From Bacillus sp. REN16 (GTDB taxonomy: Bacteria > Bacillota > Bacilli > Bacillales > Bacillaceae_L), in contig NZ_JAJFZK010000002.1 of the NCBI RefSeq assembly GCF_020731355.1, positions 248,001 through 312,000 of the forward strand: a stretch of DNA of 64,000 nucleotides, in the 5' to 3' direction. Position 1 is the first letter of the stretch, and the number at the start of each line of letters is the position of its first letter. A model generated the notes under the pieces. It worked only from the letters and a program-made list of their open reading frames with translations. It had not been told where the DNA came from and ran no database searches. This document shows positions 42,652 to 50,850 of this stretch, piece by piece. Made by a program: the position numbers and the translations under genes.

Positions 42652-43059
42652 TTGAAAAAGTGGGAAGCATCTTATGTTGCGGGAATTATTGATGGAGAAG
42701 GAAGTATTTCATTAACGAGAATGCATGAGAAGGAACACCGAAGACCTTGTATCTCTATTGCATCAACCGACATAGAACTCCTGATTTACATTCAAAAACT
42801 AACTGGAGGGGTTATAAATAATAAAAGGAATTACAAGCCAGACAGGCACAAAGATTCCTATACCCTTACAATAAAGAAAAAGGATGATGTTTTCTATACC
42901 TTAGGTAAGATTACACCCTTTTTAAGAGTAGATAGAAAAAGAAACCGTAGTATTTGGATTCTTGAAAACTATGATAAGGTTACTCCTCGAAATGGAAAAT
43001 ATAGTCCGGAATTATTACAGAAGAAAATGACATTCGAAGATTACTTTTTTGAAATGTAA
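42652..43059 (+). CDS. Free-standing LAGLIDADG homing endonuclease
   Basis: The product has 135 residues from a TTG start at 42652, after GAGAGGTGGGGCTGATAA. YVAGIIDGEGSISLTRMH (about 8-25) is one LAGLIDADG helix with its acidic metal ligand. There is no second copy, so it should work as a homodimer on a near-palindromic site. GGVINNKRNYKPDRHKDSY and LRVDRKRNRSIWILENY fit the DNA-binding sheet. It converges on the ssrA gene, separated only by a shared terminator, and lies outside the ssrA group I intron on the opposite strand. It may mobilise that intron (inference). The frame is intact. Confidence 0.88.
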   Translation: MKKWEASYVAGIIDGEGSISLTRMHEKEHRRPCISIASTDIELLIYIQKLTGGVINNKRNYKPDRHKDSYTLTIKKKDDVFYTLGKITPFLRVDRKRNRSIWILENYDKVTPRNGKYSPELLQKKMTFEDYFFEM

Positions 43060-43092
43060 AACGGACCCACCATATTCGGTGAGTCCGTGTTT
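43060..43092. terminator. Bidirectional terminator between the endonuclease gene and ssrA
   Basis: ACGGAC-CACC and GGTG-GTCCGT form a stem around ATATTC, with T-rich tails on both sides. It lies 32 bases after the ssrA CCA end. Confidence 0.88.
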
Positions 43093-43123: not shown

Positions 43124-43764
43124 TGGTGGAGACGGTGGGACGTGCTCTTCCATGCTTTCGTCATGGCACTGACTATATCTTGAACCTGTAATTATCAGGT
43201 CCCCCGGCGTATTATGCGAAATATAATTTGTACCTGGTCAGGTAGGATTTCGCATCCTAGTACTACCATCATGATGGCAGCCTATAAGTCGATACACGGC
43301 TGTTAGATTGCTCTACATACCGCTCGGCATTGCCTTATCGCCAATTAAGTGCGACTTAGGTTTCACCGATAAAGCCGGATTATCACTTATGTGTTACCAC
43401 ATAAGGCGACTAATTACTAATCGAACCCACGTCCAAAGATATTGGCACTTAAGCTTCTACGAGTGTAGTCGATATATTAGCGATTCGCTAACTTTTCAGC
43501 CTATCGACAGGCTTCCAAGCAGCTAGTCTGGTTGTTCTCTTCCTTTGTCCTCAGACGGCGAACTCCGGCGTAGCCCACTTAAAGTGAGTCCCTGATCCTA
43601 CCACATGGGCGATGGAGGGAGGAACCGCTATAGACTGTTATTAAGCAGCTAAAGCGAAGTTGTTGTTTTCTTTGCCAGTTATAGGCGTTGACGTTTTAAC
43701 GAGGCCGATCCCCTCGACTCGCAACTTAAGCTCAAACTACCCCTGTCGAATCCGTAGCGTCCCC
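43124..43764 (-). ncRNA. ssrA: tmRNA gene interrupted by a group I intron
   Basis: Exon 1 is 43764-43420 (345 nt) and exon 2 is 43140-43124 (17 nt, encoded CCA), giving a 362-nt mature RNA. The 5' GGGGACG pairs with CGTCTCC before ACCA as acceptor stem. GGATTCGACAGGGG follows at the 5' end, as in other tmRNAs. The tag frame at 43676-43644 reads GKENNNFALAA and ends in TAATAA. The T-arm GTGGG-TTCGATT-CCCAC is complete only after removal of the intron. tmRNA with SmpB rescues stalled ribosomes and tags the nascent protein for proteolysis. smpB lies just upstream on the same strand. The gene would be non-functional without splicing. Confidence 0.96.
43141..43419 (-). ncRNA. Group I self-splicing intron in the tmRNA T-loop
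   Basis: The 279-nt insert begins after exon TTCGAT and ends in G before exon TCCCAC. P1 can be drawn: exon CGAU plus intron UAG pairs with UUAGUCG around UAA, with the required U-G pair at the 5' splice site. P2 is CTTATGTG-GTAA-CACATAAG. The S-element AAGATATAGTC, 22-32 nt from the AGTGCC near the 3' end, can pair as P7 with GACTTATA in the upstream R-like segment. The last base is G as expected. No reading frame is inside, so any mobility must come from elsewhere. Confidence 0.93.
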
Positions 43765-43864: not shown

Positions 43865-43892
43865 ATTATAGCACATGCATTTACAATTTCAA
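43865..43892 (-). promoter_or_regulatory. Sigma-A promoter of ssrA
   Basis: On the minus strand TTGAAA (43892-43887) and TATAAT (43870-43865) are 16 bases apart, about 100 bases before the mature tmRNA 5' end and downstream of smpB. A leader removed by RNase P is expected. Confidence 0.75.
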
Positions 43893-43910: not shown

Positions 43911-44378
43911 CTACATTTTTTGGCGTTCACGGAATGCGCGTTCGATATCACGTTTTGCTTCTTTTTTCTTGAGATCTTCACGTTTGTCATACTTTTTCTT
44001 CCCTTTACCGAGACCTAATAAAAGCTTAGCATAGCCATTTTTCAAATAAATCTTAATTGGAACAAGTGCATAGCCTTCTTCTTTTGTTAAACCAATTAGC
44101 TTGTTGATTTCTTTTTTATGAAGAAGCAGCTTACGTGTTCGAAGTGGATCATGATTATATCGGTTACCTTGCTCATAAGGGCTAATATGCAGGTTATAGA
44201 GAAACATTTCACCGTTATGAACACGTGCATAGGAATCCTTCAGGTTCGCACGGCCATTGCGAAGGGATTTGATTTCAGTCCCTTGAAGCACGATCCCTGT
44301 TTCATAGGTTTCTTCGATAAAATAATCATGATTTGCTTTCTTGTTTTGTGCAATTACCTTGCCTATACCTTTTGGCAT
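43911..44378 (-). CDS. smpB: SsrA-binding protein SmpB
   Basis: The product has 155 residues. [40 protein letters not shown] and [19 protein letters not shown] are the conserved OB-fold of SmpB, and the basic tail [20 protein letters not shown] enters the ribosomal mRNA channel. SmpB binds the tRNA-like part of tmRNA and is needed for charging and ribosome entry. The ssrA promoter lies directly downstream. SmpB would have to act on spliced tmRNA. Confidence 0.97.
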
Positions 44379-50761: not shown

Positions 50762-50850
50762 TATGTATAACTCCTTTATGATGTCTTATGTTTACTTTGC
50801 ACGTTTTTTCGCTATTCTACTATCGTACCGGAAATACCGTTTTGGGTGCA

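Follow-up and report, generated by a model that had tools for sequence, protein, structure and literature searches.

The window, the 64,000-nucleotide stretch of Bacillus sp. REN16 DNA analysed here, carries on its minus strand the tmRNA gene ssrA (43764-43124), whose T-loop is interrupted by a group I intron. Exon 1 (43420..43764; 345 nt; an RF00023 match) runs from the 5′ strand of the acceptor stem into the T-loop; its 3′ end reads ...GGACGTGGGTTCGAT, with ...GGGTTCGAT as the T-loop portion that closes it. Exon 2 (43124..43140; TCCCACCGTCTCCACCA) supplies the 3′ strands of the T-stem and of the acceptor stem, plus the CCA end. The splice sites given in the original prediction were correct: when the exons are joined they form an RNA of 362 nt in which the acceptor stem is rebuilt and the T-arm is intact (GTGGG-TTCGATT-CCCAC). 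The 3′ end of the spliced (intronless) form is GGACGTGGGTTCGATTCCCACCGTCTCCACCA. A counterpart of exon 1 was present in all 149 relatives searched. The tag reading frame (43641..43676, minus strand; GGC AAA GAA AAC AAC AAC TTC GCT TTA GCT GCT TAA), read directly, encodes the tag (A)GKENNNFALAA.

Upstream of ssrA, and on the same strand, lie a promoter-like site recognised by its match to the consensus (43865..43892; TTGAAA-16-TATAAT, 11 of 12 positions, with a TG before the -10 region) and smpB (43911..44378), which codes for the 155-aa partner protein of tmRNA (Pfam SmpB, 213.6 bits). Downstream of ssrA there is a terminator-like stem-loop (43053..43088, minus strand; 12 bp, a loop of 4 and a T-rich tail). 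As would be anticipated with an intron-containing form, ARAGORN does not call the tmRNA. The original prediction had named a second, intact ssrA elsewhere in the genome as a finding that would refute it; no other RF00023 match above the cut-off was found genome-wide, the remaining matches lying far under it and being mostly tRNA-sized. This ssrA is the only tmRNA gene of the genome and is probably functional, splicing of the intron being needed to restore the T-arm and the acceptor stem, and this forms part of the reading of the locus proposed below.

Fold and class of the intron

The intron (43141..43419, minus strand; 279 nt; ends TAGTAATTAG...GAGCACG) is inserted between T-loop nucleotides 6 and 7 (TTCGAT/T). 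The original prediction had suggested checking the minus strand against the Rfam models for tmRNA and for group I introns. The tmRNA model, RF00023, matched with 162.7 bits (cut-off 47, E 6e-66), whereas RF00028 (Intron_gpI) reached 38.0 bits (E 1e-7), under its cut-off of 50. Since this score is below the cut-off, the intron fold was tested by comparison across relatives, using 56 distinct introns, a hand-drawn fold of 72 pairs (P1-P9, including the P3/P7 pseudoknot and P7.1/P7.2) and 500 shuffles. Among these introns, 96.5% of the cells were paired. Two-sided changes were seen at 41 of the 72 pairs, compared with 19.4 ± 2.0 in the shuffles, and the covariation score was 0.243, compared with 0.130; on no measure was the observed value reached in any of the 500 shuffles. 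Sliding the partners by 1-3 columns made pairing fall to 32-37%. CG/UA/AU exchanges were plentiful in P2 and P3, while P1 and P7 were nearly invariant. The group I fold, with its P3/P7 pseudoknot, is supported by strong covariation despite the sub-threshold Rfam score, and the 279-nt T-loop intron initially predicted stands on both the Rfam matches and this covariation. The hallmarks singled out at that time were all present, namely a U(-1).G pair in P1, the S-element (AAGATATAGTC, 43181-43171) and an omega G at 43141. P3 is formed by 43379-43374 paired with 43208-43203. Six-frame translation revealed no ORF of note within the intron.

An intron at the identical site was found in 43 of the 149 genomes of a sample taken at the level of the order; the junction TTCGAT/T was seen in the window and in 42 sampled relatives. 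The other 106 were intronless, with a contiguous tmRNA among the matches listed to their end, and at least 15 genera held both intron-bearing and intronless species. Introns of this class have been reported, as the original prediction had suspected: a survey published in 2025 lists 883 unique intron-form tmRNAs, predominantly from Bacillota and mostly interrupted at T-loop position 7 (PMC11915505), a form known from Clostridium botulinum (Williams 2002, as cited in PMC11915505 and PMC2729099). Like the position-7 introns, that of the window lies in the tmRNA gene after the sixth nucleotide of the T-loop, belongs to the same size class (their average is 293 bp), has the U(-1).G pair and the terminal G, comes from a member of the Bacillota and has no internal homing endonuclease gene (HEG), as is usual for them. 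It is an ordinary new member of the published class, differing from the known ones in sequence only. Self-splicing with exogenous guanosine, reported for the C. botulinum tmRNA intron (PMC2729099), may be presumed for that of REN16. The original prediction held that this case and its regulation merit attention; no sign of regulation was found, and the same intron occurs in the 43 genomes mentioned above. The dependence of ribosome rescue on GTP and RNA folding would be ordinary group I biochemistry. The informative part of the locus is the adjacent free-standing LAGLIDADG endonuclease gene, which had been overlooked.

The free-standing LAGLIDADG gene downstream of ssrA

This HEG (42652..43059, plus strand; 135 aa) is convergent with ssrA, begins with a TTG codon preceded by a ribosome-binding-like sequence (AGGTGGGG), and has its stop codon 64 bp beyond the CCA 3′ end of the tmRNA, so that the terminator-like stem-loop lies between the two genes. 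Its product matched Pfam LAGLIDADG_3 above the cut-off (25.2 bits) and contains a single LAGLIDADG motif with an acidic catalytic residue, YVAGIIDGEGS; in the alignment, D14 and G17 were invariant and E16 was replaced by D only. The AF2 model (pLDDT 91) gave I-CvuI, I-CreI and I-MsoI as its best Foldseek folds, and a profile built from 12 relatives of the HEG matched I-MsoI. The protein is therefore predicted to have a LAGLIDADG fold (alpha-beta-beta-alpha-beta-beta-alpha) of the I-CreI/I-MsoI type. I-CreI, I-MsoI and I-CvuI act as homodimers, and the near-palindromic sequences that they cleave lie at the insertion points of group I introns. The HEG product shares with them the single motif, the size (about 135-160 aa) and the fold; it differs in sequence (16-22% identity in the fold matches), in its gene target and in being free-standing, the other three being intron-encoded. 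The HEG is under purifying selection (median Ka/Ks 0.14 over 14 pairs). NCBIfam has no model for it. PHROGs places the family in phrog_5046, named 'HNH endonuclease', a name repeated in some phage annotations and contradicted by the LAGLIDADG sequence and the predicted fold.

LAGLIDADG genes have been reported inside just 36 of the 883 published tmRNA introns (4.1%), either in P7.1 or after P9, and free-standing copies are not mentioned in that survey (PMC11915505). Unlike those intron-borne genes, the HEG of the window lies outside both the intron and ssrA, past exon 2 and the terminator, in convergent orientation. No free-standing HEG clade dedicated to ssrA and linked to HEG-less introns was found in the open-access literature searched. 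The ssrA-dedicated free-standing HEG thus appears to be new, and the intron itself ordinary.

Distribution of the endonuclease gene in Bacillota and viruses

The HEG or a remnant of it was present in 25 of the 43 intron-bearing genomes and in three of the 106 intronless ones (as the genomes are not independent samples, Fisher values overstate the significance). The three intronless exceptions were a decayed copy (genome G002), a fragment (G036) and a 34% identical homologue located elsewhere (G129). In the remaining 18 intron-bearing genomes no HEG was detectable; the intron therefore persists without it, which would also be expected from a homing cycle. A scan of the genomes of 84,980 species by the HEG sequence alone returned 80 named loci, nearly all with titles of Bacillaceae-type organisms. 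An ssrA lay within the fetched stretch at 69 of these, always convergent with the HEG; where the HEG was both intact and adjacent (44 copies), a median of 44 bp (range 27-602) separated the two genes. Nearly all intact HEGs were convergent with, and ~30-150 bp from, an intron-bearing ssrA; the genomes of HEG loci without a nearby ssrA mostly had an intron-bearing ssrA elsewhere. Within the sampled Bacillota, 55 of 79 intron-bearing cases had an intact HEG frame, compared with none of the eight in which the ssrA T-loop was uninterrupted (L149, L171, L173, L175, G002, G036, G335 and G284).

HEG copies far from ssrA were considered as a possible second niche and rejected. In genome G007, the interval between ssrA and the HEG proved to be a 42 kb Tn7-like transposon, which displaced the HEG; the same probably applies in other genomes. 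The element encodes a fused TnsA-TnsB, TnsC and a pair of TniQ proteins, is bounded by inverted copies of TGAGACTTCAACC and begins a short way past ssrA (contig 12, about 15-57.6 kb; L214-L216). Many more Bacillaceae loci have comparable TG...CATA ends behind ssrA, which suggests that ssrA serves as an attachment site.

Some loci showed individual features. In Metabacillus niabensis (L171), a complete intronless gene whose T-stem is different has taken the place of the former ssrA; downstream lie the 3′ portion of the earlier intron, the earlier exon 2 and an HEG remnant, a fossil of intron loss. The copy of the tmRNA 3′ end seen there stems from the replaced gene and not from insertion of the HEG. 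The tmRNA intron of Bacillus sp. Marseille-Q3570 (L124) measures 430 nt instead of about 280, the extra ~150 nt being located in an extension of P5, and the HEG downstream is intact. Contig 12 of genome G169 carries the HEG twice, at 50762 and 56969 (a distance of about 6 kb); one copy is decayed and the other intact beside an intron-bearing ssrA.

Viral relatives of the HEG were found by protein sequence alone. Those that retain the motif T-x-RNG[KR]Y amount to about 16 distinct loci, including one in an annotated phage (Sphingobium phage Lacusarx, L219), and all lay at tmRNA genes; those of L225 and L247 were recognised by reading the T-arm and the 3′ end rather than by Rfam. For the 76 viral loci lacking the motif, ARAGORN detected no tmRNA, nor did Rfam in the about 35 checked. 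The HEG is located antisense in the P7.2 loop of a T-loop intron in L177, L179, L188 and L226, and after P9 of such an intron in L247, that is, in the layout of the LAGLIDADG genes published within tmRNA introns (PMC11915505). It abuts the CCA end of an intron-bearing tmRNA in L187, and of intronless tmRNAs in L185 and L186. In L181, L183, L184, L219, L222 and L225 it lies within or beside permuted tmRNAs. In L182 the HEG is downstream of a complete tmRNA and is followed by a second copy of the tmRNA 3′ end that starts in the T-loop. At L181 and L182 an intact HEG adjoins an intronless, canonical T-loop; hence either the intron is not the sole protection, or the enzyme does not target exactly the T-loop. 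In the HEG tree the free-standing Bacillales copies formed one supported group (100/97) with three loci of other Bacillota families (L207-L209) nearby, while the intron-borne and permuted phage forms mostly fell in a separate group, the deeper branches being weak.

Three further ideas were discarded. Restriction of the HEG to introns everywhere is true of the sampled Bacillota and false in viruses. Altered T-loops as a form of immunity to the HEG, suggested by several intronless viral tmRNAs that have a non-TTCGA loop and adjoin intact HEGs, were dropped, since the Rfam alpha_tmRNA consensus is also without TTCGA; such loops are the alpha-type norm and therefore no evidence of immunity. The third was that HEG insertion generally leaves a second tmRNA 3′ end behind, which was seen in L182 only. 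Two viral contigs are worth recording. In Gordonia phage WilliamBoone (L220), gene 22 is a more distant homologue of the HEG that overlaps a tRNA-Ser gene within a cluster of tRNAs, a hint that a sister group may be directed against the T-arms of tRNAs. Contig L187 (IMG/VR 3300044846_004645) combines a GOLLD RNA with the HEG and with a tmRNA whose T-loop is interrupted by a group I intron (96 bits).

Proposed collaborative homing and its alternatives

The nearest precedents for such a pair are phage systems, for example that of cyanophage psbA, where a free-standing endonuclease, F-CphI, accompanies an ORF-less group I intron (PMC3984707, PMC6083498). In both cases a group I intron without an HEG of its own has a free-standing endonuclease as its genetically linked partner, as collaborative homing requires, and in the pair of the window the target is presumed to be at the intron insertion site. 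The window differs in that its pair is on a bacterial chromosome and in a structural RNA gene, and in that the enzyme is of the LAGLIDADG type instead of having the F-CphI fold. Moreover, its intron and HEG are only about 0.1 kb apart and can therefore be co-converted, which distinguishes them from the F-CphI pair. We propose, with a probability of roughly 0.7, that the intron and the free-standing HEG, a member of a clade dedicated to tmRNA, are partners in collaborative homing. A homodimeric HEG product would cut uninterrupted ssrA at or near the T-loop, while the intron in the host's own ssrA would block the target site; repair from the intron-bearing ssrA would then copy the intron, exon 2 and the HEG together, about 0.75 kb. 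After fixation the HEG would decay and the intron would stay, because its imprecise loss kills tmRNA. Splicing in REN16, cleavage activity, the exact target site and joint co-conversion are inferred. An insertion site that is also the target, protected in the intron-bearing allele, would agree with the lack of any intact HEG beside an uninterrupted ssrA among the eight Bacillota cases and with the clade members inside the intron, the viral loci L181 and L182 being exceptions. Collaborative homing would explain the linkage, the convergent placement outside the transcript, the missing HEG-only states in Bacillota, the post-fixation decay of the HEG and the existence of intron-borne cousins. Somewhat less firmly, we favour the more general view that a LAGLIDADG clade dedicated to the tmRNA T-loop, found in chromosomes and phages, spreads HEG-less introns by collaborative homing; an HEG family almost exclusive to the tmRNA genes of bacteria and phages probably explains the spread of these introns.

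The HEG could instead target the 3′ end of ssrA, or the DNA downstream, and home by itself, the intron being a linked passenger irrelevant to the enzyme. The position of the Bacillota HEG, outside the intron and past the terminator, would suit this, as would the viral members that adjoin intronless or permuted tmRNAs. We consider it unlikely, since the HEG is nearly absent from the intronless relatives (three of 106, none of them intact) and is not intact in any of the eight cases with uninterrupted ssrA, and since other members of the clade reside inside the intron and the duplication in L182 has its boundary in the T-loop.

Common descent alone, with intron and HEG vertically inherited from one Bacillaceae ancestor, could be the whole reason for their co-occurrence. 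SmpB distances did correlate with those of the intron (r 0.51) and of the HEG (r 0.58). However, HEG and intron distances correlated with one another (r 0.69, 45 loci), and the partial correlation given SmpB was still 0.56 (permutation p 0.001, indicative only as the genomes are not independent). In addition, the intron of Virgibacillus halotolerans is 85% identical to that of the window, whereas exon 1 is only 70% identical. Intact HEGs accompany intron-bearing ssrA genes in three other Bacillota families (L207-L209; the intron of L209 was identified by eye) and on phage contig L187. Given also the genera in which intron-bearing and intronless species coexist, inheritance alone appears improbable.

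A role of the protein as a maturase aiding the splicing of the tmRNA intron has a parallel in the group I LAGLIDADG maturases, such as that of the Thermotoga neapolitana 23S case (reviewed in PMC3984707), and would agree with the purifying selection on the HEG. Such a role is very improbable because 18 of the 43 intron-bearing relatives have no HEG; further, clade members accompany intronless tmRNAs, and the related intron of C. botulinum self-splices in vitro without protein (PMC2729099). That splicing is a device useful to the host, gating the supply of tmRNA by temperature, GTP or Mg, is scarcely credible: all tmRNA does pass through splicing, ssrA being single-copy, but the intron is patchy among close relatives, no aptamer or regulatory family appeared in the Rfam-searched stretch, and the intron is associated with a selfish endonuclease.

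Introns in tmRNA genes are widespread and nearly all lack an endonuclease, so that their mobility has so far had no mechanism; a free-standing HEG clade tied to ssrA would supply one that can be tested with purified protein. If collaborative homing holds, the pair would be the first of its kind in a bacterial chromosome. It would explain why introns restricted to a single loop of a single RNA gene have spread to 21 phyla even though 96% lack an endonuclease, and would provide a clean chromosomal model for the teaming up of a free endonuclease with a ribozyme. As the same clade has both free-standing and intron-borne members, it also offers a model of how endonucleases enter introns. The locus also illustrates how selfish DNA could cut and rewrite, time and again, a gene central to ribosome rescue in Bacillaceae.

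The REN16 genome is itself unusually rich in introns, with seven further group I intron matches (C2:227606, C45:207312-209234 and C5:3811-6401). These adjoin the genes for thymidylate synthase, flagellin (three matches) and ribonucleotide reductase (three matches); one LAGLIDADG ORF is located near the flagellin introns, and one of the three ribonucleotide reductase matches has a LAGLIDADG ORF.
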